Below the pieces are notes generated by a model that was given only the letters and a program-made list of their open reading frames with translations, ran no database searches and had not been told where the DNA came from. From Candidatus Diapherotrites archaeon (GTDB lineage Archaea; Iainarchaeota; Iainarchaeia; Iainarchaeales; 1-14-0-10-31-34), in NCBI GenBank assembly GCA_040755695.1, contig JBFMAK010000002.1, forward strand, positions 1 through 64,000: DNA of 64,000 nucleotides. Direction: 5' to 3'. The first letter of the stretch is position 1; every line of letters begins with the position of its first letter. Of this stretch, positions 5,343 through 24,602 are shown piece after piece. The translations under genes were made by a program, and so were the position numbers.

Positions 5343-6644
5343 ATGGAATTAATGCTGCCTAAGGGGACAAGGGATTTCCTGCCTGAAGAGAAAATTTTAA
5401 GGGAGAAAATAATAAGGCAATTAAAAGAGGTCTTTGAATTGTACGGCTTCAGCCCAATTGAGACTCCGGCAATAGAAAGATTTGAGGTTTTAGCCTCAAA
5501 GTATGCAGGAGGGGAAGAAATACTCAAAGAAACCTTTAAGTTAAAGGATCAAGGCCAAAGGGAATTGGGATTGAAGTACGACCTCACAGTGCCTTTAGCA
5601 AGGGTGATTGGAATGAATCCAAACCTGAAAATGCCCTTCAAGCGCTACCAGATAGAAAAGGTGTGGAGGGACGGCCCAATTACAACCTCAAGGTACAGGG
5701 AATTCTACCAGTGCGATGTAGACGTAGTTGGAAGCAGTTCAATGATGGCTGACGCAGAAATACTCAAAATTACGTCTACCTCATTAGAGAAACTGGGTTT
5801 AGAGTACGAAATTAAAGTGAACAACAGAAAGATACTGGACGGATTAATGCAGGACTTGGGAATAAGGGAAGAGTACTGGAATTCAATCCTTCTTTCTTTG
5901 GATAAAATAGAAAAAATTGAGAAAAAGGAAGTGGAAAGAGAATTAGAAGAGAAAGGGCTGGAAGAAAAAAAGATAAAGGCACTCTTTGAGTTCTGTTCAA
6001 TAAAAGGAAGCAATGGAGAAATAATTGCGCGCGCAAAGAAAACAGTCAAATCAAAAGAAGGAATTGAAGGGATAAAAGAATTAGAGGAATTGCTGGATTA
6101 CTGCAAGGAATTCAAAGTGAATAACTTATACATAACTTATTCTTTGGTTAGAGGCCTTTCGTACTACACTTCAACAGTGTTTGAGGCAGTGCTTTCTAAA
6201 AGCAAGGTTAAGAGCAGTATTGCAGGCGGGGGAAGATACGACAATATGATTGGTGCTTTTCTGGAGGGAAGCAAGGAGTTTCCTGCTGTGGGAATTGCCT
6301 TCGGCTTGGACAGGATTTATGACGCATTAATGGAGAAAGGCTTGAAGGCAGAAAAAACAAACACAAAAATTTATGTAATCCCGATTGGCACAGAAGCAGA
6401 AAAAAAGGCAATTGAATTGGCTGAAAGGATGAGGGAAAAGGGAATTAATTCTGACATTGATTTATTGAAGAGGGGCATAAGCAAGAACTTAGATTATGCT
6501 TCAAGGCAGGGCATTCCTTTTGTTGCATTGCTTGGAGAAAACGAATTAAAGGAGGAATGCCTCAAGTTGCGCGACATGAAGACTGGAAAGGAAGAGAAAA
6601 TAAAATTGAATGAATTAGAGAAATTAAAAAAGATTATTGTATAA
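5343..6644 (+). CDS. hisS: Histidyl-tRNA synthetase
   Basis: This class II synthetase charges tRNA-His with histidine. The 433-residue length is normal. Motif 1 is in the N-terminal part (LPKGTRDFLPEE start), motif 2 is around WRDGPITTSRYREF, the histidine-binding segment LVRGLSYYTSTVFE is present, and motif 3 is AVGIAFGLDR. A C-terminal anticodon-binding domain starts near residue 345 (YVIPIG). The ATG follows AAAGGAG by a few bases. tRNA-His lies immediately upstream, so enzyme and substrate genes are adjacent and may share a transcript. Confidence 0.97.
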   Translation: MELMLPKGTRDFLPEEKILREKIIRQLKEVFELYGFSPIETPAIERFEVLASKYAGGEEILKETFKLKDQGQRELGLKYDLTVPLARVIGMNPNLKMPFKRYQIEKVWRDGPITTSRYREFYQCDVDVVGSSSMMADAEILKITSTSLEKLGLEYEIKVNNRKILDGLMQDLGIREEYWNSILLSLDKIEKIEKKEVERELEEKGLEEKKIKALFEFCSIKGSNGEIIARAKKTVKSKEGIEGIKELEELLDYCKEFKVNNLYITYSLVRGLSYYTSTVFEAVLSKSKVKSSIAGGGRYDNMIGAFLEGSKEFPAVGIAFGLDRIYDALMEKGLKAEKTNTKIYVIPIGTEAEKKAIELAERMREKGINSDIDLLKRGISKNLDYASRQGIPFVALLGENELKEECLKLRDMKTGKEEKIKLNELEKLKKIIV

Positions 6645-6686
6645 AAAATAAAATGAATTGAATGAATTGAAAAGAGGGGGAAATTA

Positions 6687-8222
6687 ATGGAAGAAAAAGT
6701 AATTGAATTGAAGGGGAAAGGCCTTTCAATTGAAGATGTAGTAAAAGTCGCCAGAGAGAACAAAAAAATTGAACTGACAGAGGAAGCCATAGAAAAAATT
6801 AAAAAATCTAGAGAGATAGTGGAAAAACTTATTGCAAGAAGAGAGAAGCTTTACGGCGTATCCACTGGAATTGGAGAATTATCAAATGTTTTTTTGACTC
6901 CTGAGCAGGTAAAAGAATTCCAGAAATACTTGATTTACAGCCACGCTGCAGGATGGGGTGAGCCAGTGTCAATAGATGACGCAAGGGCTGCCTGGCTTAC
7001 AAGAATTAATATTCTATCAAAAGGACACTCTGGATTAAGGCTTGTTATAGTTGAAACCTTGATTGAAATGCTGAATAAAGGCGTTACTCCAGTAATGTGC
7101 CAGAAAGGCTCTGTAGGAGCAAGCGGGGATTTATCTCCTTTAGGCCAGGGAGCATTAGTCTTAATGGGGGAAGGAGAAGCATTCTATAAAGGAAAAAGAA
7201 TGAAAGGCAAAGAAGCAATGGAAAAAGCAGGAATTCAAACCATAACCTTTGAAGCAAGAGACGGCCTAGCAACAATAAACGGGTCGAACATGGTTGCAGG
7301 GATGGGCTGCATGCAGGTATTTGACGCTGATAAACTAATAAAAACATCGGAGATAGCAGCAGCAATGACTCTTGAAGCCTTGCTTCCAAACATGCTGGCA
7401 TACGATGAAAGAATCCATAAAGCAAGAGGATATGAAGGAGCAGTAGAATGCGCTGCCAACATAAGAAAGATAGTTGAAGGAAGCGAAATACTAAAACAAA
7501 AGCCACAGAAAGTCCAGGAATCCTATAGTTTAAGGAGTACGCCCCAAGTTGTAGGCGCAGCAAAAGACACACTGAAATTTTCAAGGAAAATGTTTGAAAC
7601 AGAAATAAACGGGGTAGGAGACAACCCTTTATTCTTCCAGGATGAAGGAGGAATCTGCCTTACAGGAGCAAACTTTCAGGGCACGCCATTAGCTTTCGCC
7701 CTAGAATATTTAGGCATAGGCCTTACAACAGTGGGGGCATTATCTGAAAGGAGAATGAACAGGCTTGTAAACCCGAATCTTAATATGGGCTTGCCTGCAT
7801 TCCTGACAAAAGGCGCAGGAATGTTTTCAGGCATGATGTTAGCCCAGTATACTGCAGCTTCTCTTGTCTGTGAGAACAGGGTTCTATCAACTCCTGCTGC
7901 AACAGGCTCTATTCCAACCGCAGCAGACCAAGAAGACTTCGTGAGCATGGCAGCAACAACTGCAATAAAAACAAAAGAGATACTGAAGAATTCAAGCGCA
8001 ATATTCGCAATAGAATTAATGGCTGGAGCGCAGGCCTTGGATTTCAGGAAACCCTTGAAGCCAGGGAAAGGAACCCAAGCAGCCTATGAAGTCATAAGAA
8101 AGTATGTGAAGCCACTTGAAGAAGACAGACCGTTATACAACGACATCAACAAATTGTCTGAGGTCGTAAGGTCAGGGGAGATAGTGGAAGCAGTTGAAAA
8201 AGTAGTAGGAAAATTAAAGTAA
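6687..8222 (+). CDS. hutH: Histidine/aromatic amino acid ammonia-lyase
   Basis: The 511-residue protein belongs to the MIO-dependent ammonia-lyase family. The cofactor-forming Ala-Ser-Gly lies at 145-147 within GSVGASGDLSPLGQG. The catalytic tyrosine loop is YGVSTGIG (56-63). SHAAG at 85-89 resembles the histidine ammonia-lyase selectivity loop. Late sequences include TPAATGSIPTAADQEDFVSM. It would deaminate histidine to urocanate, though a tyrosine or phenylalanine substrate is not excluded. No other hut genes are nearby. It sits 42 bp after hisS, and its start follows GAGGGGG. Why a lyase without a visible degradation pathway sits beside hisS is unclear. Confidence 0.88.
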   Translation: MEEKVIELKGKGLSIEDVVKVARENKKIELTEEAIEKIKKSREIVEKLIARREKLYGVSTGIGELSNVFLTPEQVKEFQKYLIYSHAAGWGEPVSIDDARAAWLTRINILSKGHSGLRLVIVETLIEMLNKGVTPVMCQKGSVGASGDLSPLGQGALVLMGEGEAFYKGKRMKGKEAMEKAGIQTITFEARDGLATINGSNMVAGMGCMQVFDADKLIKTSEIAAAMTLEALLPNMLAYDERIHKARGYEGAVECAANIRKIVEGSEILKQKPQKVQESYSLRSTPQVVGAAKDTLKFSRKMFETEINGVGDNPLFFQDEGGICLTGANFQGTPLAFALEYLGIGLTTVGALSERRMNRLVNPNLNMGLPAFLTKGAGMFSGMMLAQYTAASLVCENRVLSTPAATGSIPTAADQEDFVSMAATTAIKTKEILKNSSAIFAIELMAGAQALDFRKPLKPGKGTQAAYEVIRKYVKPLEEDRPLYNDINKLSEVVRSGEIVEAVEKVVGKLK

Positions 8223-14068: not shown

Positions 14069-14140
14069 AACAATTTCACACCAAAATTAATTCTAACAGC
14101 CTTTTAGGAAAAGGCTGGCGAAAACTGACAGTGGCAGTTT

Positions 14141-14336
14141 CCCGCCTTTGCATAGTAGTAGTGCGTCCGGCTGTAGTTCTGCCCTTTTTTCTTTTAGGAA
14201 AAGAAAAAAGTGTAAGTTGCCCAAAAAAGAAAAAAGGGTTTGTCAACACCTTTGAAGCGGTGTTACGACGCAATTATTATTGGTGCTGAAGCAAGCAGTT
14301 ACCGGAAGGTCCCCGGTGCAAATCCGGGAGGCGGGA
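14141..14336 (+). tRNA. tRNA-Tyr (GTA) with 124-nt intron, atypical D- and T-loops
   Basis: The acceptor CCCGCCT pairs with AGGCGGG, discriminator A; C1:G72 is the archaeal tyrosine identity pair. The anticodon stem TCCGG/CCGGA has anticodon GTA at 14173-14175, and the intron spans 14177-14300. The T-stem is CCCGG/CCGGG. Two things are odd. The T-loop is TGCAAAT, so the near-invariant T55 is G. The D-loop (TAGTAGTAG) lacks the GG that normally contacts it. It may be a functional but unusual tRNA or a degenerating copy. Its 3' end is the parent of the repeats R1-R7 downstream. Confidence 0.8.
14182..14238 (+). repeat. Purine/pyrimidine double-hairpin repeat, copy B (in tRNA-Tyr intron)
   Basis: CCCTTTTTTCTTTT, a loop, AAAAGAAAAAAG, then the core GTGTAAGTTGCCCA (14210-14223, identical to copy A) and AAAAAGAAAAAAGGG, which can also pair with the 5' pyrimidine run. 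Confidence 0.75.
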
Positions 14337-14415
14337 TTACTACATAACTTTTGTTATCAAAAGATTAAAAAAACATAAAAACACAAAATAAGAAAGAAAA
14401 TCAAAAACTGTAATG

Positions 14416-15294
14416 TCAAGTGTTTAACTTCCCATTAAAGAATAATTGTGCAGGATAGTTTTTAATGCCTCTGTGGTAGCATTTGTTGTTGTACCATTTT
14501 ACCCATTCTTTGATTTTTCCTGCCAGCCAGTGAGGAAATTTCAGTAAGAGGTTAACAAACTCTTCTGCAAGATTTCTGATGGCTCGCTCTACTTTACCTT
14601 TGTCTTGCGGATAGTAAGGGTGAGCAAACAAAGCGTTTATTTTTTGTTGTGCGAGCAAGTCAACCCACTCTTGCTTGAAGGGATTGTTGTCAGTAAGAAC
14701 ATTTCTGGGGTGATACTCTTGCATGAATGGTTTTATGGCTGCGAATATCTCTTGTATGTTTGGGCAGTGATCAAACTGTTCTGCTGTAATAATATATCTG
14801 CTGTAGTCATCAACGCAAAGCAGAAAATACCATTTCTTTCCTTGTACAGTAAAAGGCCCTTTCAAGTCTAACTGCCAGAGTTCATTAGGCTCTTTAGCTC
14901 TAAAAAACTTCCATGCCTTCTGCTCTCTATTAAATCCGTTAACGTGATGCTTGCATAAAACCTTGTTAATGGATTGTCTTGAAAGATTTACTCCTTGAGG
15001 ACATTCTTTCATTTCTTTCTGCATGAATGCTGGTAAGGCTACAAGGCCTTGCTGTATTCTGGCTGTGCCCCACTTAAACATTACACGCATGAATAATATG
15101 GCTAGCTCTACTTCAAAGGCTATCTTTCTTTTTTTGTTTCTTGGCTTATCCTTCAAGCTTGTTCTGGCATCCCGTTTACCCCAGTAACGAATAGTCTTTC
15201 TGTTAACACCAAAAACCTTTGCTACAAGGCAAACAGGATTACCTCGCCGTAAGCATTTTATTATGGAATGTCGTTCTTCTTGTGTTAACCGCAT
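14416..15294 (-). CDS. Transposase with HTH and rve integrase core (IS481-like)
   Basis: The 292-residue protein has an N-terminal helix-turn-helix (about 1-40, VAKVFGVNRKTIRYWGKRD), a second helical region, and an rve core from about 130. Catalytic residues are visible as DLKGPF (first D), LTDNN (second D) and KGKVERAI (E), followed by the usual WYNN...HRG tail. It catalyses cut-and-paste or copy-type transposition of its own element. The frame is intact, so the element may be active. It differs from the tyrosine recombinases that would be expected to use tRNA sites. Confidence 0.88.
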   Translation of the reverse strand: MRLTQEERHSIIKCLRRGNPVCLVAKVFGVNRKTIRYWGKRDARTSLKDKPRNKKRKIAFEVELAILFMRVMFKWGTARIQQGLVALPAFMQKEMKECPQGVNLSRQSINKVLCKHHVNGFNREQKAWKFFRAKEPNELWQLDLKGPFTVQGKKWYFLLCVDDYSRYIITAEQFDHCPNIQEIFAAIKPFMQEYHPRNVLTDNNPFKQEWVDLLAQQKINALFAHPYYPQDKGKVERAIRNLAEEFVNLLLKFPHWLAGKIKEWVKWYNNKCYHRGIKNYPAQLFFNGKLNT

Positions 15295-15305
15295 ATATAA
15301 TCCAA

Positions 15306-15350
15306 AGTAGTGGGGGACTCCAATCCCCCACCTTCTGGATGCCCACTACT
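15306..15350 (+). promoter_or_regulatory. Nested hairpin upstream of the transposase
   Basis: An outer 9-bp inverted repeat AGTAGTGGG/CCCACTACT encloses an inner GGGGA/TCCCC hairpin. It lies just 5' of the transposase start on the minus strand and could act in the leader RNA or as an internal transposase binding site. Confidence 0.55.
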
Positions 15351-15471
15351 CCCTCCTTTGAATATACAAACAATATCCAACAAAAAGAAGCTTTCGGTCA
15401 GTGGGAAGTTAAAAGGTTTACTTTACAGCAACAAAACATTTAAAAAGAACAATATTCTATTATAGTATGAC

Positions 15472-17466
15472 ATGAAATTTAAAACAGCTTTAATTTTTTT
15501 TGGAGTCCTTTTAATATTAGGATTTATTAGCGCTACAGCGCCAACAGTGCTTGTCATCCAGCCAAACGGAAGCCAATACATTAAAGGAAGCTATACAATT
15601 GATTTTAATGTAACAGATAATGATTCAAATTCTATTGCTGACTCAAACCTGATGGCACGCATTTATTACAGTTCTACGCAGGGGGCTTTTACAACTTTAA
15701 TCACAGACTTAAACCTAATGAATACAAGCGTTTGCGGAGACCAAAATTTTGTAACAACAAATAATTGCACTTACAGCTGGAACACAGCAGTGGTCACAGA
15801 CGGAAACTATTTTATTGATATAAATGTTGTGGACAGCCTGCCAAACGGTACTTTCAGGGATTCAGGCTCAGATTCAAGCAATACAAGCTTTATGATAGAT
15901 AATACTGCTCCGACAACTTCATGGGATGGCAATACTACTTGGCAGAAAATTGATGCCAACATTCACTTGACCTGCGTTGACGCTTCAAACAACTGCCCTA
16001 CAACAAAATACAGGGTTGACACTGACTCATCAAGCACAGTTTCCTATGGCTCTTGGACTACATATGACACAAACATTTTCATTAATTCTGACGGAAACTG
16101 GGCTTTAGACTTCAATTCCACTGACGCAGCGCTAAATATTGGAGACGTAAACACTTTTTATGTGTTAATTGACCAGACTGCGCCAGTAGTAACAATATCC
16201 AATCCAGCAGACGGTTCAAGCCAGACATCAACTGGAGTAACATTAGTTTACAGCGCAACAAACACAGGAGACATAAACAAATATTACGTTCAAGTAGATT
16301 CAAATGGATGGGTAGACAACAGTACAAATCTTTCTTATGACTTTAATAATTTAACGACCGCAAGCCATACATTTTATGTTATTGCACAAACAAAATCAGA
16401 CGTAAACAGTTCAACTGCTTCAGTAACAATATCTGTAACCTCCCCGCCAGCGCCTAATACAGGAGGCCTAAATTACTGTCGTGCCCAATACATTGACGGC
16501 CATTATGGAGACATTTGCAATGATGATGAAGAATGTACAGGACAATGGCTCACTGCACTGGACTCTGATAGATGCTGTTCAGTTGAATGCACTCCTGCAG
16601 TTCAGGAAGTTTGCGGCAATGGAATTTGCACTGGAGACGAAAATGCAAGCAATTGCCCAGCAGACTGCCAAACAGAAACAAAAGAAACTGTATTAGAAAA
16701 AGTAATTTCATACAAACCCACTTCAGAGGAAATAAGGAATAAATTAACTGAAGTTGGAGCTTCAGAGAATGCAATAGAAAAAGCTTCTCAGGCAGTAGGA
16801 AAAACAACAGTAAGCAGAACAATTACAGTGGAAAAAATAACAGACACTATTACAGGAGAAATAAGTTATCAAACTACAATGACAATCAACATAAACAATC
16901 CAGGAAAAAAGAAAACAAACATAAAAATAATTGAATTCATTCCAAAATCAGTGGCATTAAACGCTTCACAAATAAAAAGCGATTTTGAATTCACTATATT
17001 AAAAGAAGACCCAGTAATTGAATTTTCAATTGACGAAGTTAACCCAAACCAGACAAAAAACATAACCTATACTATAGACGACGAGGTAAGCAATCAGGCA
17101 ATAAATGAAATGACTGCCCCAATAGTAGCAGAATTCGCAGAAGAAGAACCTCTAATAGACTTGTGCAAAGGAAAAAATTGTGATGACAATAATCCTTGCA
17201 CCCAAGATTCCTGTGATTCTACAACAGGAGAATGCTCTAACACAAACTTAACTGAAGGAACAAGCTGCGGAACAACCAAAGAATGCAAAAATGGGAAATG
17301 TATCACAAAAACAGTTACAGATGATGATGGCAAAGAACCACAAAAACCAGAAGAAACAGACTTTACTCCGTTCATTATTCTAATTATTTTAATAATTATA
17401 GCAGGAGCAGCATACTATTATTTTAAAATACAAAAACCAAAAAACGACTTAACCTACAAAAAATAA
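15472..17466 (+). CDS. Large surface protein with Ig-like and cysteine-rich domains
   Basis: The 664-residue protein has a signal peptide (1-22), Ig-like strand regions (about 25-330), a cysteine-rich repeat with CGNGICTGDENASNC (about 383-400), a CARDB-like or helical middle (about 410-560), a second cysteine cluster CKGKNCDDNNPCTQDSC (about 565-610), and a C-terminal helix (about 631-651) with a lysine tail. It should be anchored and exposed on the cell surface. It lies inside the tRNA-Tyr repeat array, so it may be exchanged between strains like adhesins in other mobile loci (inference). Confidence 0.8.
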   Translation: MKFKTALIFFGVLLILGFISATAPTVLVIQPNGSQYIKGSYTIDFNVTDNDSNSIADSNLMARIYYSSTQGAFTTLITDLNLMNTSVCGDQNFVTTNNCTYSWNTAVVTDGNYFIDINVVDSLPNGTFRDSGSDSSNTSFMIDNTAPTTSWDGNTTWQKIDANIHLTCVDASNNCPTTKYRVDTDSSSTVSYGSWTTYDTNIFINSDGNWALDFNSTDAALNIGDVNTFYVLIDQTAPVVTISNPADGSSQTSTGVTLVYSATNTGDINKYYVQVDSNGWVDNSTNLSYDFNNLTTASHTFYVIAQTKSDVNSSTASVTISVTSPPAPNTGGLNYCRAQYIDGHYGDICNDDEECTGQWLTALDSDRCCSVECTPAVQEVCGNGICTGDENASNCPADCQTETKETVLEKVISYKPTSEEIRNKLTEVGASENAIEKASQAVGKTTVSRTITVEKITDTITGEISYQTTMTININNPGKKKTNIKIIEFIPKSVALNASQIKSDFEFTILKEDPVIEFSIDEVNPNQTKNITYTIDDEVSNQAINEMTAPIVAEFAEEEPLIDLCKGKNCDDNNPCTQDSCDSTTGECSNTNLTEGTSCGTTKECKNGKCITKTVTDDDGKEPQKPEETDFTPFIILIILIIIAGAAYYYFKIQKPKNDLTYKK

Positions 17467-17482
17467 TTCTAATTTTGTAAAT

Positions 17483-17530
17483 TCCGGCAGGACTTGCACC
17501 GGTAGAGCAGTGTTGGGAGGCGGGATTTAT
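17483..17530 (+). repeat. tRNA-Tyr-derived site R1
   Basis: Long-form repeat: CCGGCAGGACTTGCACC, a short loop, then GTGTTGGGAGGCGGGATTT. The last part copies the tRNA-Tyr 3' acceptor strand (14326-14338). CAC/GTG can pair as a small hairpin. It lies 17 bp after the surface protein gene and before Fic. Confidence 0.8.
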
Positions 17531-17581
17531 TACTCAATTGTTGTTATTACTCATGCCTTTTTAAACATTTCTGAGTAATAA
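17527..17581 (+). promoter_or_regulatory. Direct and inverted repeats around the Fic promoter
   Basis: TTATTACTCA occurs at 17527-17536 and 17544-17553, 17 bp apart, and inverted (TGAGTAATAA) at 17572-17581. They flank the TTTTTAAAC promoter box. R3 is followed by a similar pair, TTATTACACA/CTATTACACA at 20599 and 20616, also 17 bp apart, before the second Fic gene. Confidence 0.6.
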
Positions 17582-17587
17582 CTAATT

Positions 17588-18520
17588 ATGGCTTATTTGG
17601 CAAAACAAAAGAAAGGCAAACAAGAATACTATTACCTGGTTGAAAACATTCAAATAGCCACTGGCAAGAGAAAGCAGCTTAGAAAATATCTGGGGAATGA
17701 AAAACCTTCTGAAACAAAGCTTCAAATACAGGTGGCAAAATTTGAAGAAGAAGTTGAAAAAGAAAAAATTAAATTGCATGGCTTTCACTATTTAACCAAA
17801 GATGAAATAACAGAGATCGACGAAATCAACAAAGAATTTTGGAAAAGATACAACAAACAAAATAAGACAGTGCAGGAACAATTTGACCAGAACTTTGTAA
17901 TGGCTTTTGTTTTCAACTCAAATTCAATTGAAGGCAGCACTTTAACACCAAAAGAAGTTGAACTGCTGTTAAGAGAAAATATTGCGCCGAATAAGCCGCT
18001 TGAGGATGTGCTTGAGGCAAAGAATGCAGAAAAAACGCTAAACTTTGTGAAAGAACACAAAGAAGAATTAACAGAAGAATTTTTGCTGAACGTACATGAA
18101 ATATATTTTAAAGAAACCAAACCTTACGTTGCAGGCAAATACAAAACAGCACAAAATAGGATAACTGGCTCTGCATTTGAGACCACCCCACCAAAACTTG
18201 TGCAAACAGACATAAAACTGTATTTCAAAGAATATGAAAAACTCAAAAAAGAATTACACCCACTGGAGCTTGCCGCTTGGGCGCACTGGAAGCTTGTAAG
18301 AATTCACCCATTCCAAGATGGCAATGGAAGAACAGCAAGAATAATAATGAATTTTGTTTTACACAAAAATGGCTATGCAATGATTGACATAAAAACAAAA
18401 GAAAAACAACAATACTTCAAAGCATTAGAAAAATGCCATTACAACAACAATGCAAGGGCGTTGGCAATCAGGCTTGTGAGAAGATTCAAAAAACAATACC
18501 AAAATGCGTTGAAAGGATAG
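17588..18520 (+). CDS. Class II Fic-family protein
   Basis: The 310-residue protein has the complete Fic motif HPFQDGNGRTAR (near 240), which AMP-ylates or otherwise modifies target proteins with a nucleotide cofactor. An inhibitory-helix motif SNSIEG, matching (S/T)xxxE(G/N), lies near residue 113. It therefore carries its own alpha-inh and needs no separate antitoxin. The N-terminal 60 residues are basic and strand-rich (YYYLVENIQ, KQLRKYLG) and are shared with the Fic protein at 20695. The promoter box near 17558 suggests a leaderless mRNA. The next gene starts 7 bp after it. Confidence 0.9.
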   Translation: MAYLAKQKKGKQEYYYLVENIQIATGKRKQLRKYLGNEKPSETKLQIQVAKFEEEVEKEKIKLHGFHYLTKDEITEIDEINKEFWKRYNKQNKTVQEQFDQNFVMAFVFNSNSIEGSTLTPKEVELLLRENIAPNKPLEDVLEAKNAEKTLNFVKEHKEELTEEFLLNVHEIYFKETKPYVAGKYKTAQNRITGSAFETTPPKLVQTDIKLYFKEYEKLKKELHPLELAAWAHWKLVRIHPFQDGNGRTARIIMNFVLHKNGYAMIDIKTKEKQQYFKALEKCHYNNNARALAIRLVRRFKKQYQNALKG

Positions 18521-18527
18521 GGATTGT

Positions 18528-19574
18528 ATGAAGCAAATTATTTCAACATTGGAATTAAAGGAAATTGATATTAAAAAATTAGAACCATTTATTGAGCGCT
18601 GGAAACAGATTAAAGACCTGCCTTGTGACAATATTGAATTTCATGAAACTGACAAAAACACTATTTTAGTTAAATTATATTACCCTTTAGATATTTTTGA
18701 CCGTTCAGTTTCACAGTTTGTAACAGTGCTGTTTGGGGAATTGTCATTTGTTAAGAACTTTGGAAAAGTAAAATTCTTAGAACTACAATTGCCAAATGAA
18801 GTTTACAAATGGTTTACAGGCCCAAAATTTGGAACTGAAGAAATAAAGAAGCGATTTGACGTTTCCAATTACCCGCTTTTAATGGCTATAATTAAACCTT
18901 CACTGGGAAAAACTCTAACCACAGAAATATTGGAAACAAAAATAAAATCTGTTTTATCAGGCGGATTCAATGCAGTAAAAGATGACGAAATGCAAGGGAA
19001 CTTAAACTATGCGCCATTGAAACACAGAATTAAACTTGCAAAGAAATATCAAAAATACATTCCAGCCATAAACTTGGATAAGGCAGAAGATTTTAGGAAA
19101 GTAGTATCTGATGAAAAAATAGGGGCGGTTCTAATCAATGCTTCTACTCTTGGATTTCCCTTGCTTCATGAAATCAAGAAAATTTCAAAAGTTCCCATAA
19201 TCTCACATCCTGCATTGCAGGGAGTTTATGGATATAGTTTTTCTCACAAAGTTTTTGCAATGCTGCACAGGCTGTTTGGCTGCGATGGTTACATATGCCC
19301 TATCGCAGACGTTGATTATTTTAATGTAAGCAAACAAGAAGAAAAAGAAATAATCATGGAATTTACAAAAGACTTGCCTATCAAAAAAACCATGCCATTA
19401 CTTGCTGGTGGGGCAAGAATCAATAGCTTGAAGAATATTATGGCGCCATATGAAAAAATGAGAATTCCTTATGGTTTGGTATTTGGCTATCAAATCTTTG
19501 CAGACGATAAGAAGTCTTCACAAATGTGTAAAAATGTGGTTGAAAAAGTAAGAAGAATTAAGCAAAATCTATAG
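18528..19574 (+). CDS. RuBisCO-like protein (form IV type)
   Basis: The 348-residue protein aligns with RuBisCO large subunits but is about 80 residues shorter. Seen in order: an N-terminal domain remnant, GPKFG (98-102), KPSLG (123-127, for KPKLG), GGFNAVKDDE with the carbamylation lysine at 151 followed by DDE, SHPALQG (near 226) at the place of HRAMH, and LLAGGARI. The lysines equivalent to K177 and the loop-6 K334 are missing, so carboxylation is unlikely. Relatives enolise other sugar-phosphate-like compounds. It shares an operon with Fic between R1 and R2. No pathway partners are seen. Confidence 0.8.
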   Translation: MKQIISTLELKEIDIKKLEPFIERWKQIKDLPCDNIEFHETDKNTILVKLYYPLDIFDRSVSQFVTVLFGELSFVKNFGKVKFLELQLPNEVYKWFTGPKFGTEEIKKRFDVSNYPLLMAIIKPSLGKTLTTEILETKIKSVLSGGFNAVKDDEMQGNLNYAPLKHRIKLAKKYQKYIPAINLDKAEDFRKVVSDEKIGAVLINASTLGFPLLHEIKKISKVPIISHPALQGVYGYSFSHKVFAMLHRLFGCDGYICPIADVDYFNVSKQEEKEIIMEFTKDLPIKKTMPLLAGGARINSLKNIMAPYEKMRIPYGLVFGYQIFADDKKSSQMCKNVVEKVRRIKQNL

Positions 19575-19610
19575 CTGCCAGCGTGGGAAAACAATAAAAG
19601 AATCGCTGAA

Positions 19611-19657
19611 TCCGGCGGGAGTTGCACCAGTAGATCGGTGTTGGGAGGCGGGACTTA
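19611..19657 (+). repeat. tRNA-Tyr-derived site R2
   Basis: Best example of the long form: TCCGGCGGGAG, TTGCACCAGTAGATCGGTG, then TTGGGAGGCGGGACTT. CACC/GGTG forms a clean 4-bp stem with loop AGTAGATC. GGCGGGA occurs twice in direct orientation 33 bp apart. Confidence 0.82.
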
Positions 19658-19724
19658 CCTATTAGAGCAACTCTCGCCTTTGAAACGCAAGGTTTATAAA
19701 AAGCACCAGGTATTACTTAATGAT

Positions 19725-20024
19725 ATGGAGCACGTGAGCATTAAATTGGATGCTGCCTTTGCAAAGCAGATTGAGAGAGACATGCGAGAATTCAATTACA
19801 CTACCAAAACAGAATTCATTAGAGAGTCCATTAGAGATAAATTAAAACAGCTGGCAGCAGAAAGAGAGAAAAAGAAAGCGTGGGAAGCACTATTTGCTGT
19901 AAGAGGAATACTCAAGGGAAAGGTGCCGATGCGAACCAGAGAGGAAGAGCAACAATTTGAGAAAAAGATTGACAGAGAAATAAGAGAACACTATGAAAAA
20001 AAATTTGGAATCAATCTAAAGTAA
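19725..20024 (+). CDS. Ribbon-helix-helix antitoxin-like protein
   Basis: From the ATG at 19725 the protein has 99 residues: MEHVSIKLDAAFAKQIERDM, then a helix pair (TKTEFIRESIRDKLKQL) typical of CopG/ParD-like RHH DNA-binding proteins, and a charged C-terminal tail. The AAGGTTTATAAAAAG promoter (19689-19703) gives a nearly leaderless mRNA. The gene converges on a PIN toxin with 14 bp of overlap at the 3' ends. Earlier in-frame starts fall in R2 and are rejected. Confidence 0.8.
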   Translation: MEHVSIKLDAAFAKQIERDMREFNYTTKTEFIRESIRDKLKQLAAEREKKKAWEALFAVRGILKGKVPMRTREEEQQFEKKIDREIREHYEKKFGINLK

Positions 20025-20439
20025 TGTCCTCTGGCATTGTCACCTCAACAATTGAAGCCAGCAAATCAAAGAAATGCTTGTCCCGCGCAACCAGTACAGC
20101 CTTATTGTCCCTCGCTATAATTGTATGAAGAACATCCTTGAAAGGAAGTTGCCTGTTTCTCTTTTGCCATTCTCTTCTTGCTTCAGAAACCTGCTCAGCG
20201 CTAGCGGAAACTTTCCTGATAATGCCACTAAAAGAGGAAAAAATCTCTTTTACTCGCTCCTTTGAAAGCCTACGCTCCAACTCAAGAACAACAGTATCGG
20301 AAACAAGAATCTCAATGTCTTTTTCCCTGCACTGTCGCAGGAACTGAAAAGCGAATTCGCCAAGAGGCTTAATGCCGTCTTTTCTGTCTTCAAAGTAATC
20401 ACGCCAGATTGCAGTGTCAAGATAAAATTTTTGCTGCAT
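20011..20439 (-). CDS. PIN-domain toxin
   Basis: The 142-residue protein begins with YLDTAIWRDYFEDR (first metal-binding aspartate), has VSDTVVLELERR (acidic residues of helix 2), LPFKDVLHTIIARD and a late LVARDKHFF. This is the VapC-like acidic quartet for Mg-dependent RNA cleavage. It is convergent with the RHH gene, an unusual layout since VapB/VapC pairs are normally tandem. Its ATG is about 25 bp from an ATTTAAAT box on the minus strand. Confidence 0.85.
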   Translation of the reverse strand: MQQKFYLDTAIWRDYFEDRKDGIKPLGEFAFQFLRQCREKDIEILVSDTVVLELERRLSKERVKEIFSSFSGIIRKVSASAEQVSEARREWQKRNRQLPFKDVLHTIIARDNKAVLVARDKHFFDLLASIVEVTMPEDITLD

Positions 20440-20464
20440 AGTAACAACTATTGCTTAACATTAT

Positions 20465-20511
20465 TTAAATTTGCCACAGCAAATTTAAGTATTTAAAGCA
20501 GAGCTTTAAAT
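20465..20511 (+). repeat. Two adjacent AT-rich hairpins
   Basis: TTAAATTTGC-CACA-GCAAATTTAA (20465-20488) and ATTTAAAGC-AGA-GCTTTAAAT (20491-20511) are perfect inverted repeats upstream of the PIN promoter. Both are built around GC-A-rich loop-GC centres, like those at 37769-37809 and in the tRNA-Asp intron. Confidence 0.65.
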
Positions 20512-20556
20512 TATTTAAAACAAATTAACCAGCAGCAGGTAAGCAATGGCTGAAAT

Positions 20557-20608
20557 TGTCGGGACTCGCACTCACAGCTGGGGGTTGAGAGGCGGGATTT
20601 ATTACACA
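20557..20608 (+). repeat. tRNA-Tyr-derived site R3
   Basis: Long form: GTCGGGACTCGCACTCACAG, then GGGGGTTGAGAGGCGGGATT. ACTC can pair with GGGT where R2 has CACC/GGTG, so pairing is kept with different bases. It precedes the second Fic gene. Confidence 0.78.
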
Positions 20609-20694
20609 TTTTAGTCTATTACACATAGCTTTTTTTGCCAATGTAGCCAAAATTTTAGATATATTTAAAAAATGTAGCCGTCTATTATATCAAT

Positions 20695-21648
20695 ATGTTT
20701 ATCGAAATAAAAAAAGTCGGAAACAAGAAGAAATATTATCTAGTTCATTCATTTAGAGATGGAAAGAAAGTTAGAAAAATTCGAAGATATCTGGGGAGCA
20801 ATCTAAGCAAAGAAAAACTTGTACAAATGAGGGAAGTTGCAGAAAAACAAATTTTACAAAGAGTAAAAATATTTAAGAAAATAAATGACCCGCTGCTTGA
20901 AGTTTTAACAGAAGAAGAAATAAAAAAAATAAAGGAACTTGAAACAAAAAAGGCCTTTAAAATATTTCATTTATCTGAAGAACAATGGCAAAGATTCTCA
21001 GAAATATTCACCTACAATACTAACGCAATTGAAGGAAGCGAACTAACCCAAAAAGAGGTAAACCAAATATTAGAAAAAGACAAATGGCCTGAAGATAAAA
21101 CTAAAGAAGACATTTCAGAAGCATATGGCGTTACAGAAGCAATCAAATTTATAAGAAAAACAAAAGAACACATTTCGATTGAACTAATCAAACAAATCCA
21201 CGAAATTGTTTTCAGAAATAGTAAGCCATTTGCCGGCAAAATAAGACAAAAAGGAATAGAAGTTGTTGTAAGAGACGGTCTTGGGAATATTGTTCATCAA
21301 GGAGCGCCATCAGAAAAAACTGCTGAATTACTAAAAGAACTATCACAATGGTACAACAAATACAAAAACAAATACCCCCCCATTTTACTCGCAACAGTTG
21401 TACACAACCAGTTTGAAAACATTCACCCTTTTCAGGACGGAAATGGGAGAGTTGGAAGAATACTAATGAACAATATACTAATAAAGCACGGATTGCCTCC
21501 AGTAAACATTGATTTCAAAAACAGGAAAAAATACTATGAATCATTGCAAGAATATGAAAACAACCATGACATCAGACCAACAATCGAATTACTGCTTGAT
21601 GAGTACAAAAAGCTAAGAAAGCAATTAAAGGCGACTACAAATAAATAA
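20695..21648 (+). CDS. Class II Fic-family protein (second copy)
   Basis: The 317-residue protein has HPFQDGNGRVGR near 243 and the inhibitory motif TNAIEG near 107, so it is a self-inhibited Fic enzyme. Its N-terminus (KKYYLVHSFRDGKKVRKIRRYLG) resembles that of the Fic protein at 17588, and both follow a long-form repeat with 17-bp-spaced direct repeats. They are diverged paralogs within the same array. The TATATTTAAAA box near 20658 suggests a leaderless mRNA. Confidence 0.9.
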   Translation: MFIEIKKVGNKKKYYLVHSFRDGKKVRKIRRYLGSNLSKEKLVQMREVAEKQILQRVKIFKKINDPLLEVLTEEEIKKIKELETKKAFKIFHLSEEQWQRFSEIFTYNTNAIEGSELTQKEVNQILEKDKWPEDKTKEDISEAYGVTEAIKFIRKTKEHISIELIKQIHEIVFRNSKPFAGKIRQKGIEVVVRDGLGNIVHQGAPSEKTAELLKELSQWYNKYKNKYPPILLATVVHNQFENIHPFQDGNGRVGRILMNNILIKHGLPPVNIDFKNRKKYYESLQEYENNHDIRPTIELLLDEYKKLRKQLKATTNK

Positions 21649-21663
21649 AATGTAGCCGCCCAA

Positions 21664-21712
21664 ATTCGGCGGGATTTGCACCAGCAGATCGGTGTTGGGA
21701 GGGGGGATATTT
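21664..21712 (+). repeat. tRNA-Tyr-derived site R4
   Basis: TTCGGCGGGATTTGCACC, loop AGCAGATC, GGTGTTGGGAGGGGGGAT. Only one base of the acceptor copy differs (GGCGGGA to GGGGGGA). It begins 15 bp after the Fic stop. Confidence 0.8.
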
Positions 21713-21746
21713 TACCTTTTTTTATGAGCAAGAAATAGCAACGTCT

Positions 21747-22466
21747 TTATCTTTTTCCTCTTTTTGGTTTTCCTGCAATTCTTTCATCAAAAGGCACTTC
21801 AGTAATAGCATGCCTTTTTTCTGCGGAAAAATAAACAATCAAACTATAGTTTATCTGGTCTTTAATCAGTTGAGGCAAATCAGCTTTTCTATCCCACTTA
21901 GTCAAAGCAACAAAAAAAGCAAGGTCAGCAGTTCCCTGAATATCCCCAAAATCAGGCCTGTTCCTAAACCTTCTTACCGCTGCATCAATTATCCCAACAT
22001 GCTCTTCATACAATTTATTTCTTTCGGCTTCACCTAAAAGATTCAGCACAGGCAAATCTTCAACATACTTCGATTCTCCAAAAACTTTCCCCAGCCTGGA
22101 TGCTGCAGCCTTCAAAGCCCTCTCACGCCTCTGCTCAGGAGTCAAAGAAGCTATAGCCTTCAAACCTTTCAAAGCCCTCTCACGCCTCTGCTCAGGAGTC
22201 AAAGAAGCTTCTCTCTTCAAAGCCCTCTCACTTCTATCATAAGATGATAAAACAGCCCTTCTTTTTTCCCACAACAACGCTTTTATTCTTGCAGGAGTTA
22301 CAGCTTCTTTTTTTGGAAAAACCTGGCTTAAATAAACACTAACCGTTGATCGCGGAATGCCATACTTTTCGCTAATTTCTGTAACAATCTGCTGTCTTGG
22401 AGTTCCCTGCTTTAGCCCCTCAGCCATCCTCAAGAAATAAACAGGCAAAAACCTCTTTCTCGCCAA
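21747..22466 (-). CDS. HTH protein with a sigma-region-2-like segment
   Basis: The 239-residue protein starts at a TTG 8 nt after GGGAG. An N-terminal HTH is visible (QIVTEISEKYGIPRSTVSVYLSQVF, about 27-51). Then comes a basic linker with a duplicated SLTPEQRRERALK repeat (about 88-125). The C-terminal part (about 150-215) reads YEEHVGIIDAAVRRF...DFGDIQGTADLAFFVALTKWD, which resembles sigma-70 region 2. Archaea do not use sigma factors, so a DNA- or RNA-polymerase-binding role is speculative. It is the only gene between R4 and R5 and lies on the opposite strand to most array genes. Confidence 0.6.
   Translation of the reverse strand: MARKRFLPVYFLRMAEGLKQGTPRQQIVTEISEKYGIPRSTVSVYLSQVFPKKEAVTPARIKALLWEKRRAVLSSYDRSERALKREASLTPEQRRERALKGLKAIASLTPEQRRERALKAAASRLGKVFGESKYVEDLPVLNLLGEAERNKLYEEHVGIIDAAVRRFRNRPDFGDIQGTADLAFFVALTKWDRKADLPQLIKDQINYSLIVYFSAEKRHAITEVPFDERIAGKPKRGKR
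22111..22230 (-). repeat. Internal coding repeat in the sigma-like gene
   Basis: A 42-bp unit occurs at 22111-22152 and 22168-22209 without change, with a 15-bp third start at 22216-22230. Unit starts are 57 and 48 bp apart, multiples of three, so the repeat stays in frame and encodes SLTPEQRRERALK twice. Confidence 0.85.
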
Positions 22467-22548
22467 AAAACATCTCCCAAATAAACTAATTCTAATAAAT
22501 AATGAACATTAACACCTATAAAATAATAACCATAAACACAGCCATTTT

Positions 22549-22594
22549 CGTCGGGGAGTTGCACTCACAGATGGAGGTTGGGAGGCGGGATTGA
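22549..22594 (+). repeat. tRNA-Tyr-derived site R5
   Basis: CGTCGGGGAGTTGCACTC, ACAGATG, GAGGTTGGGAGGCGGGATT. CTC/GAG replaces the CACC/GGTG stem of R2. It lies upstream of an antitoxin/RelE operon. Confidence 0.8.
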
Positions 22595-22627
22595 CCTCTG
22601 GAAAGACCGCCGACTAGAAAGGTTTAT

Positions 22628-22646
22628 AAATTAGTTTAACTAATTT
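22628..22646 (+). promoter_or_regulatory. Palindromic operator at antitoxin/RelE promoter
   Basis: A perfect 19-bp palindrome (AAATTAGTT-T-AACTAATTT) directly follows and overlaps the GGTTTATAAA promoter box, 18 bp before the ATG. Autoregulation by the antitoxin is the likely use. Confidence 0.68.
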
Positions 22647-22664
22647 TATATTAGGTGAAATTAT

Positions 22665-22928
22665 ATGCAGAAAACTGTGACCATGAATGTTAAAGTAAAA
22701 GATTATACAAACAGAGTAATTGGTGTTGTTAAAGAGAAGTATGGCTTGAAAGACAAGGGCGAGGCCCTTGACAAGTTTGCCGAGCTTTGCGGGGAGGAAT
22801 TTGTCGAGCCTGAAGTAAAGGAAGACGTCATTAGAGAAGTCATTGAATCTTGTGACAGGCACATCAAAAAATACGGCTTCAGAAGCAGAAGTGTTAAAGA
22901 TTTGCGGAAGATTATTGAGGCGAAGTAA
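22665..22928 (+). CDS. Antitoxin-like protein of a RelE pair
   Basis: The 87-residue protein begins with a strand VTMNVKVKDYTNRVIGVVKEKYG resembling a short RHH or DUF2683-like DNA-binding part, followed by charged helices. It ends one base before the GTG start of a RelE-type toxin. Promoter and palindrome lie just upstream. Confidence 0.72.
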   Translation: MQKTVTMNVKVKDYTNRVIGVVKEKYGLKDKGEALDKFAELCGEEFVEPEVKEDVIREVIESCDRHIKKYGFRSRSVKDLRKIIEAK

Positions 22929-23210
22929 GTGCCATTCGAATACGACTTCAGCGATGGGTTAGAGGAAACTCTTGAAAAGCTGTTCAAGAAAGACAAAAAC
23001 CTCTACGACTCTTTGATGAAAAAAATTGAAGAAGTTGTCTCAAGAGATGAAACCACAATAGGATTCTACAAAAATCTGCGATACGATTTGAAGGAATTCA
23101 AAAGAGTTCACGTTGCGAAAAGCTTTGTGCTCTTCTTCAAAGTATTCAAAGAAAAAAATTTCATTATTTTTGATAAATTTGGGCACCACGATGATATGTA
23201 TAGGCGATAA
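22929..23210 (+). CDS. RelE/YafQ-like toxin
   Basis: The 93-residue protein starts at a GTG that directly abuts the antitoxin stop. It has the compact RelE/ParE layout: an N-terminal helix pair (EETLEKLFKKD...LMKKIEEVV), central strands with LRYDLKEFKRVHVAKSFVLFF, and a final FDKFGHHDDMYR, where the HHDD-Y tail matches RelE/YafQ RNases. It probably cleaves mRNA on the ribosome and is neutralised by the product of 22665. Confidence 0.82.
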   Translation: MPFEYDFSDGLEETLEKLFKKDKNLYDSLMKKIEEVVSRDETTIGFYKNLRYDLKEFKRVHVAKSFVLFFKVFKEKNFIIFDKFGHHDDMYRR

Positions 23211-23248
23211 AATGAACCACAAACCACACACCAAAAACTACTTTCTGG

Positions 23249-23274
23249 ACAGCACATCCGGGAGGCGGGACTTT
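23249..23274 (+). repeat. tRNA-Tyr-derived site R6
   Basis: This short form is closest to the tRNA itself. GCACATCCGGGAGGCGGGA (23252-23270) matches tRNA-Tyr 14318-14336 at 18 of 19 positions, covering part of the T-loop, the T-stem 3' strand and the acceptor. Confidence 0.85.
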
Positions 23275-23339
23275 TTCTCAATAAAAAGGCACGCCGGACG
23301 GCAATAGGTTTATAATCTGTTTACATTATAATATATTGT

Positions 23340-23876
23340 ATGACAAAGTTGCTTGTGATTAGTGACAGCAGCTCTTTGATCATTGGAACAAAGGCCGGAT
23401 TATTGACTGCACTATGTGAAGAATTTGAGGTTGAAATTCCTGAGAAAGTGTTTGAAGAAACCGTTGCAGCAGGAAAAGAGTTGCAAAAAATAGATGCATT
23501 GAAAATAGAGGAAGCAATCGAAGAAAACAAAATAATGGTTAAAAAAGCAACGCCTATTAAAGACAGCAAGGTAATGAAATGGTTCAAGGAACTTAATCTG
23601 GATGAAGGAGAAAGTCAGGCAATACATCTTTACATTCAAACAAATGCAAAACTTTTGCTGGTCGACGACAAGCAAGCAATAAATGCAGCAAAATTGCTTG
23701 AAATAAACTGGGCAACTATTCCAGACATTATTGTAGGGTTTGCTGAAAGGGCAAAAATCCCCAAAGAAAATGCTTTAGAAGCACTAAAAATAGCACAGCA
23801 GGAAGGGAGATATAAGATTGATTTTATTCTTAAAGCATTTAATAAAATCGAAAAAATTAAAGGAGGAAAAAAATGA
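23340..23876 (+). CDS. DUF3368 PIN-like toxin
   Basis: The 178-residue protein has VISDSSSLI (first aspartate) near residue 7, a central LNLDEGESQAIHLY (acidic pair) and LLLVDDKQAINAA, the pattern of DUF3368 PIN-like RNases. The C-terminus is a helical tail. The AGGTTTATAAT promoter lies 27 bp upstream. The next gene, a UPF0175 protein, overlaps by 4 bp, the usual partner arrangement. Confidence 0.85.
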   Translation: MTKLLVISDSSSLIIGTKAGLLTALCEEFEVEIPEKVFEETVAAGKELQKIDALKIEEAIEENKIMVKKATPIKDSKVMKWFKELNLDEGESQAIHLYIQTNAKLLLVDDKQAINAAKLLEINWATIPDIIVGFAERAKIPKENALEALKIAQQEGRYKIDFILKAFNKIEKIKGGKK

Positions 23877-24187
23877 AAACTGAGTTAGTTTCCGCAAGAT
23901 TTGAAAAGACAGACACTGCACTAATAGAAGAAGTTGCCAAAGAAGAAAAAACAGACAAAACTACGGCCTTGAAAAGGATATTTTCACTGGGGGCAAAACA
24001 GTACAAGCTAGAAAAAGCCATAGAGCAATACCAAAAAGGACAAATAAGCATAGGCAAAGCAGCAGAAAAAGCAGGAGTCAGCTTGTGGGAAATAATGGAC
24101 GAACTAAAAGAAAGAAACATAGTTAACCCGTTAGGCGAAGAGGAATTCAAAGAAGGCCTCAAAAACCTTGAAAAGGTTTGGAAATGA
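23873..24187 (+). CDS. UPF0175-type antitoxin
   Basis: The 104-residue protein has an N-terminal segment that looks RHH-like (LVSARFEKTDTALIEEVAKE) and a C-terminal UPF0175 HTH (GQISIGKAAEKAGVSLWEIM). These proteins neutralise DUF3368 toxins. An AGGAGG-type site just before the ATG (23864-23869) lies inside the toxin gene, and a 4-bp ATGA overlap follows with the next gene. Confidence 0.85.
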   Translation: MKTELVSARFEKTDTALIEEVAKEEKTDKTTALKRIFSLGAKQYKLEKAIEQYQKGQISIGKAAEKAGVSLWEIMDELKERNIVNPLGEEEFKEGLKNLEKVWK

Positions 24188-24486
24188 GCAAAAATGCAAT
24201 TGGTTGGACTCACATAATATTGGAAGCATACTGCGCTAGGAAATGGAGCGACAAAAAAGACAAATACTGGTATGAAGTTGTCGATTGGAAAAAATTCAAA
24301 ACCAAAAAAGTTCCAAATCCCCGCTATGACCCAAAATACAAACTGCCAAAAAAGCCGTATTACTGTATAGGAATCCCCCAATATATTTGTCTGGAAAAGA
24401 ACTGCCCACATCTTGCATACACAGATGCCTTAAAGAGAGATTACCTGTTCTTAAATAAAAAATACAAAAAGAAGGAAAAGAAATGA
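24184..24486 (+). CDS. Small cysteine/lysine-rich protein
   Basis: The 100-residue product is basic, with MSKNAIGWTHIILEAYCARK at the start and cysteines in YYCIGIPQYICLEKNCPH that might bind metal. The ATG at 24184 overlaps the UPF0175 stop, making it the third gene of the operon. I do not recognise it. Confidence 0.6.
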   Translation: MSKNAIGWTHIILEAYCARKWSDKKDKYWYEVVDWKKFKTKKVPNPRYDPKYKLPKKPYYCIGIPQYICLEKNCPHLAYTDALKRDYLFLNKKYKKKEKK

Positions 24487-24602
24487 GAAACCGCAAACCT
24501 CTTACTCCCAACAACATGCCTCCAATTGACAAATCCAGAAGACGGGATATTACTATTTCTGTGGTAGAAGAAGTATTCTGCGCTTACAGAGTGAAAAGAT
24601 GA
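24483..24602 (+). CDS. Possible 39-residue protein spanning repeat R7
   Basis: ATGA overlap with the preceding stop begins a frame encoding a basic N-terminal half (MRNRKPLTPNNMPPIDKSRR) and a hydrophobic end. The R7 site forms its middle, so the frame may be a chance extension of the operon through an attachment site. Confidence 0.35.
   Translation: MRNRKPLTPNNMPPIDKSRRRDITISVVEEVFCAYRVKR
24529..24553 (+). repeat. tRNA-Tyr-derived site R7
   Basis: AAATCCAGAAGACGGGAT (24531-24548) matches tRNA-Tyr 14320-14337 at 15 of 18 positions. It is the last and most worn copy seen, and the likely far boundary of the array. Confidence 0.6.

Follow-up and report, generated by a model that had tools for sequence, protein, structure and literature searches.

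Why should the 3' end of a single tRNA gene be repeated over and over behind that gene, with a different small gene module in each interval? This question is raised by the first 64,000 nucleotides of contig JBFMAK010000002.1 (assembly GCA_040755695.1, forward strand; hereafter the window) of a Candidatus Diapherotrites archaeon, in which tRNA-Tyr is followed by seven copies of its own end, all in the same orientation. An earlier note, made from the letters of the window, had proposed that repeated insertion at the tRNA had built an integron-like array. The analysis reported here suggests that the array probably arose by serial site-specific insertion, catalysed by a tyrosine integrase of the kind that several relatives carry directly behind the same tRNA gene. 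The host genome (1.30 Mb, 42 contigs, 99.85% complete) is labelled G000 and the other three genomes of its family G001 to G003. The comparison set consisted of 75 fragmented metagenome-assembled genomes from one order of Diapherotrites-related archaea, and genome-wide statements rest on searches.

Two kinds of sites behind tRNA-Tyr

The tRNA-Tyr(GTA) gene was missed by the default tRNA scan and was identified by ARAGORN when introns were allowed. The core-word search and the alignment of the sites confirmed the seven copies of its end. When the window was searched with the core word GGGAGGCGGGAYT, allowing up to two mismatches, matches were obtained at 14326 (the tRNA itself), 17515, 19643, 20587, 21697, 22580 and 23260, all on the plus strand, and none on the minus strand of the 64 kb. 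The seventh downstream site, with core AGAAGACGGGATA, is degraded and recognisable only through its context (GACAAATCC).

All seven sites exist, as the earlier note had claimed, but they are not equivalent. Sites 1 to 5 have a fixed length of 47 nt and the consensus GGCGGGAGTTGCACCCGYAGAGCAGTGTT-GGGAGGCGGGATT, in which the tRNA end makes up the final 13 nt only. Sites 6 and 7 consist of the displaced tRNA end alone (ATCC plus core); site 6 reads ACATCC-GGGAGGCGGGACT and the decayed site 7 reads CAAATCC-AGAAGACGGGATA. In the long sites the left block GANTTGCAC lies at a constant 15 nt from the core, a spacing that can also be read off the long sites of G004, G015, G040 and G045, members of other families in which these sites are more diverged. 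The middle of the 47-nt site resembles a tRNA D-arm and its left half an inverted T-loop; these likenesses were not counted, since they could be due to chance. A cassette-head motif (CACGCCGACCGG-like) scored above shuffled sequences and is distinct in part of the heads only. The Rfam scan of the array region gave no match.

Within the host genome, the site consensus proved to be restricted to this locus. Across all 1.30 Mb, exact copies of TCCGGGAGGCGGGAYT are confined to it, and the matches found elsewhere all have three mismatches and a frequency close to that of the reversed-word control. The 47-nt pattern has five matches in the genome, every one of them forward and at the array locus. 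It has no match in 71 of the 75 genomes of the order and no exact match in IMG/VR; among the GTDB species genomes (from which the host genome was possibly left out), it was found on contigs of three genomes only, all from the family of the window.

The tRNA-Tyr gene has peculiarities of its own. Its T-loop reads TGCAAAT, with G replacing the second T of the usual TTC, and its D-loop has no GG pair; the elbow contact of this tRNA may be unusual. The four other tRNAs of the window are free of these oddities, and the TGC T-loop is found in most tRNA-Tyr genes seen across the order.

The locus in relatives and a candidate integrase

The gene order PAP2 phosphatase then tRNA-Tyr is kept in about 24 genomes of the order, and displaced copies of the genome's own tRNA-Tyr end lie behind the gene in about eight families. 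When the 201 kb downstream of tRNA-Tyr in 21 genomes were searched with each genome's own acceptor 11-mer, 28 forward copies (18 perfect) and no reverse copies were found; the reversed-word control gave 5. Chance may account for a few of the forward copies. The repeat matches the tRNA of the host, being GGGAGGGGGG in G046 and G015 and GGGAGGCGGG in most others. The arrays of G032 and G046 contain at least seven sites, and those of several other families one or two. In the sister genus the sites were found mainly on short contigs, some of which stop at a site or right behind the tRNA. A DEAD-box helicase was considered as the fixed distal flank of the array and rejected: this holds for G001 to G003, G014, G020, G031 and G040, but G000 gave no match and in G015 the gene is far from tRNA-Tyr.

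The relatives have the same type of array at the same tRNA, with differing order and content, and neither a fixed order of intervals nor a spread of the repeat outside the locus was found. Cassettes are shared between genera and families in differing contexts, at 84-86% DNA identity and 77-90% protein identity. The Fic region of cassette 4 (20629-21682) is 86.3% identical in DNA and 90% in protein to its homologue in G002, a member of another genus, where it is preceded by a short site and a MazEF-type module, whereas in the window it follows the RHH/PIN module and a long site. A Fic cassette of G003 is 84% (DNA) and 88% (protein) identical to the gene that immediately follows tRNA-Tyr in G040, which belongs to a different family, and the homologous block is bounded by two G003 sites. 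The first Fic of the window (cassette 2) is 77% identical to a Fic in the G015 array. The PAP2 proteins beside the tRNA are only 44%, 35% and 37% identical for the pairs window/G002, G003/G040 and window/G015, respectively. Homologues of cassette 3 are present in the G001 and G015 arrays, and the cassette 6 pair recurs in that of G003 (82% and about 70% identical). The surface-protein gene of cassette 1 is also found in G001 and G002 with other neighbours; its cassette is the first behind the tRNA in the window and lies behind about 4 kb of other genes in G001, and homology to the G001 contig C128 stops together with the site. The cassette start AAACCTTTTCCAAAAGG occurs behind the tRNA in G003, behind a long site in G002 and behind a short site in G001. 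Since the same start follows all three, the join lies within the 13-bp core GGGAGGCGGGATT. Comparison at the level of species and genera suggests that cassettes have been gained, lost and reordered.

The earlier note had pointed out that the window contains no integrase. In seven genomes of the order (G046, G074, G069, G060, G026, G073 and G034), the locus opens with a tyrosine integrase, encoded by the gene immediately downstream of tRNA-Tyr. Six of these seven integrases fall in one group of the tree, and the clustering of the tRNA-Tyr label exceeds that of all 500 shuffles, with near-copies contributing. Tyrosine integrases are numerous in the order, and the majority of those checked begin right next to the end of a tRNA gene (Asn, Cys, Ser, Asp, Arg, Ile, Leu, Met, Lys, Gly, Pro, Glu or Thr). 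Several of a set of related integrases (L002, L066, L068-L072, L074-L075 and L119-L136) have a CxxC-type C-terminal tail, and most of the set lie at different tRNAs.

G046 has an 8-kb integrase-bearing first unit at the head of its array, followed by six small units without an integrase. A 20-nt left-arm motif, learned from the short-site tails of the window's family only, scored high upstream of six of the seven G046 cores (0 of 20000 permutations), including the one that ends the integrase-bearing unit. Through eight genomes, this motif was found only beside such sites, apart from a simple CCCCTAA repeat on one contig. The simplest reading would be that autonomous and non-autonomous units share recognition by the recombinase. 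The short-site tail can also be read as a small in-frame open reading frame, M-N-x-K-P-L/H-T-x-N (for example window 24486-24549 and 23212-23307, L050, L053 and L101), which begins at or beside the stop of the upstream gene and often crosses the core; its variation looks codon-like, at third positions, and the tail could be a translated leader, instead of or besides a DNA arm. On contig C6 of G000, positions 108-144, near the contig start, are a tandem CCCCTAA stretch that looks telomere-like, and the contig is possibly a contaminant.

In the genome of the window the recombinases are XerA, a tRNA-Asn integrase, L004 and one on a 5.4-kb contig. Because none of them adjoins tRNA-Tyr, the tRNA-Tyr enzyme has probably been lost here or is supplied in trans. 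The tRNA-Asn integrase belongs to a 6-kb element that has the look of an ordinary insertion, with a single displaced end; it provided a comparison case without an array. The 5.4-kb contig (C9, L003) carries a short tyrosine recombinase frame and looks foreign with respect to the AT-rich genome; contamination is possible.

Contents of the cassettes

The positions of the sites and cassettes are collected in Table 1. Several gene names in the array are based on weak profile scores. The two Fic genes and UPF0175 named in the earlier note are firm assignments; RHH, PIN, the RuBisCO-like protein and the YafQ/RelE-like toxin (TIGR00053, E 4e-15, below cut-off) had matches that were weak or close to the cut-off, and the labels "sigma-like" and "DUF3368" found no support in Pfam or NCBIfam. 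The protein of cassette 5 matched no Pfam, NCBIfam or PHROG family. The insertion sequence in cassette 1 is IS481-like, with a profile match below the cut-off, and it was inserted later into the cassette: the G001 region homologous to the upstream part of cassette 1 continues on both sides of it.

Table 1. Positions in the window of the tRNA-Tyr gene, the sites and the cassettes.
Feature	Position	Strand	Basis or remark
tRNA-Tyr(GTA), 124-nt intron	14140-14337	+	ARAGORN with introns allowed; array anchor, presumed attB
Shared core GGGAGGCGGGATT at tRNA 3' end, place of joins	14326-14338	+	word search, junction comparison
Cassette 1, surface-type protein 15472-17466	14339-17527	+
IS481-like insertion inside cassette 1, transposase 14416-15294	14408-15428	-	27-nt imperfect inverted ends, rve domain
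Long site s1	17483-17529	+	47 nt, alignment
Cassette 2, Fic 17588-18520 and RuBisCO-like protein 18528-19574	17528-19655	+
Long site s2	19611-19657	+	47 nt, alignment
Cassette 3, RHH 19728-20024 (+), PIN 20011-20439 (-)	19656-20599	+
Long site s3	20555-20601	+	47 nt, alignment
Cassette 4, Fic 20695-21648	20600-21709	+
Long site s4	21665-21711	+	47 nt, alignment
Cassette 5, uncharacterised protein 21747-22466 (-)	21710-22592	+
Long site s5	22548-22594	+	47 nt, alignment
Cassette 6, antitoxin-like 22665-22928 and YafQ/RelE-like toxin 22929-23210	22593-23272	+
Short site s6, displaced tRNA end	23246-23272	+
Cassette 7, PDC-S70-like 23340-23876, UPF0175 23873-24187, small protein 24184-24486	23273-24549	+
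Left-arm tail motif 24490-24512 and decayed short site s7 (core 24537-24549)	24490-24549	+

Origin of the array and relation to known systems

We consider it likely that a tyrosine integrase built the array through successive site-specific insertions at the 3' end of tRNA-Tyr; such an enzyme is encoded in cis in relatives and is missing or acts in trans here. According to this model, the tRNA-Tyr 3' end would serve one lineage of archaeal tyrosine integrases as chromosomal attachment site (attB), and cassettes in the form of small circles of about 0.7-3 kb, with one or two genes and as a rule no integrase, would recombine there, with the exact crossover inside GGGAGGCGGGATT. Every insertion would restore the tRNA end and shift the earlier tRNA-end copy and the older cassettes downstream, so that a same-strand array would grow at the tRNA end. 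Each cassette would close with its own left arm and core. Two classes of arm occur, that of the 47-nt long sites and that of the short sites, in which a AACYACAAACCWCTTAC-type tail precedes the displaced tRNA end. The integrase found at the array head in some relatives would act in trans on the integrase-less cassettes, and the same enzyme might serve the long class; in the genome of the window it would have been lost, or would be brought in by visiting elements. The earlier idea of repeated insertion with the tRNA as primary site is supported by the confinement of the sites to the locus, by the arrays of the relatives and by their head integrases.

Several observations weigh against this reading. 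No tRNA-Tyr integrase was found in the genome of the window or in the three other members of its family, and no strains or reads show present movement. The left half of the long site lacks tRNA character, and the long class has no linked integrase. Moreover, some sites lie away from the tRNA, which suggests that they were rearranged later or inserted secondarily. They are found in G003 on contig C39 and in G015 at two positions, 18 kb and 1.06 Mb; the DEAD-box helicase that closes the array region of other families is about 155 bp away from the 1.06-Mb site. The unit at 18 kb in G015 (L144, about 5525-6918 in the reverse complement) stands alone and measures 1.4 kb, its left end being of the short type and its right end of the long type. 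The core at the left end reads GGGAGGCGGG, yet the tRNA of its host has GGGAGGGGGG, as if the unit came from another species.

The intervals might instead be remnants of once complete integrase elements that accumulated at a tRNA-Tyr hot spot and lost their integrase, with no capture system involved. The 8-kb integrase-bearing first unit of G046, the decay of the last site in the window and the ordinary single insertions made by integrases at other tRNAs agree with such a history. We regard it as unlikely, since many units comprise an intact gene or two, tightly flanked by sites, the same small units occur at high identity in other genera and families, and phmmer saw no integrase remnants in the array regions except two head copies. 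Exchange by RadA between the short sites or between adjacent shared genes, which would make the sites mere shared ends, could account for their repetition on one strand and for the rearranged copies seen elsewhere. This is very improbable: the sites have only 13-47 nt, which is short for homologous exchange, the joins fall within the core, where unrelated cassettes meet, and relatives carry an integrase at the head.

The chromosomal XerA could act on the 47-nt sites, as Xer does on plasmid dif modules. Of the tyrosine recombinases, it alone was found in each of the four genomes of the family (60-76% identical), and no integrase specific to the family is common to them; L001 passes the archaeal XerA model. 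XerA-type recombinases are, however, also present in genomes of the order without a match to the 47-nt pattern. In an alignment of 13 sites, inspected by eye and with no dedicated test, the conserved blocks GANTTGCAC and GTTGGGAGGCGGGATT did not form an inverted pair and no two inverted 11-bp arms were apparent. We consider a role of XerA highly unlikely. The array shares with integrons a single primary site (the tRNA-Tyr end) and same-orientation cassettes, and integrons do occur in archaea (PMC9668308), so that the term integron-like holds for the architecture. It does not hold for the components. When 14 sites were folded on both strands with DNA parameters, z-scores against shuffled sequences were between -1.4 and 1.5 with no common fold, and attC hairpins were rejected because no site folds beyond shuffled sequence. 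Against the IntI model TIGR02249 (cut-off 265 bits), L001 scored 209.5, L002 44.9, L004 32.1 and the integrases of G046 and G026 47.4 and 36.7; L001 exceeds the XerA model's own cut-off. A true integron, or a cluster of attC sites lacking an integron integrase (CALIN), is already contradicted by the absence of both in these tests and can practically be set aside.

A broader proposal is that the locus is an archaeal cassette-capture platform apart from integrons, with a resident tRNA gene as permanent primary site, where integrase-less cassettes of one or two genes, bearing two classes of 3' sites, are gathered, lost and exchanged between families, and with an integrase that is itself a dispensable unit visiting the head of the array. 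This is possible but we put it forward tentatively; if true, the platform would functionally be an integron made from a tRNA integrase.

In the features that can be checked on sequence, the array agrees with a tandem accretion array at an RNA gene, of the type of the ssrA genomic islands (ssrA-GIs) or of cis-mobilizable elements (CIMEs): copies of the 3' end lie downstream of the RNA gene on the same strand, some units beside the gene contain an integrase (in seven relatives, and not in the genome of the window), and units differ between genomes. Tycheposons are likewise anchored at tRNA genes and have a tyrosine recombinase and partial tRNA repeats; they are bacterial and larger than the units described here. 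The closest described case is the ssrA-GI array of Dehalococcoides (PMC3146451), in which tandem units with and without an integration module lie behind a stable-RNA gene, with same-strand 3'-end repeats and a motif upstream of each repeat that is not in the RNA gene. Our array is alike in its same-strand repeats, in a motif directly upstream of the repeat that is lacking in the RNA gene, and in its mixed integrase content. The ssrA-GIs differ in being large bacterial islands at a tmRNA gene, with a serine recombinase and reductive dehalogenase cargo, whereas here we find an archaeal host, an intron-bearing tRNA-Tyr, a tyrosine integrase, units of about 0.7-3 kb and an order-wide spread. Archaeal integrons and CALINs (PMC9668308, a paper that does not mention Diapherotrites) have similarly small one-orientation cassettes with toxin-antitoxin cargo, but also folded attC sites and IntI, neither of which was found here. 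Cis-mobilizable elements and accretion at tRNA genes (for streptococci, see PMC5704250) resemble the array in having integrase-less units between att sites that move with or by their neighbours; the present units differ in being of single-module size and numerous, and in recurring at the same locus throughout an order. A search of the open-licence literature turned up no paper on Diapherotrites arrays of this kind. New are the cassette scale, the archaeal domain, the order-wide persistence and the two site classes.

Several contigs stop at these repeats or close to them; regions of this type may therefore be under-reported, and copies of the tRNA-Tyr end offer a simple rule to locate accessory genes in fragmented archaeal assemblies. 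The integrases of the order are also good material for studying the evolution of tRNA specificity. Few routes of gene gain have been described in the reduced DPANN archaea; the tRNA-Tyr locus is a conserved, order-wide slot where small genes of the defence, toxin and surface types, often toxin-antitoxin pairs, are acquired and swapped. Its site can be identified and a candidate enzyme named, and it makes testable whether tRNA integrases serve as a general means of cassette capture outside integrons.

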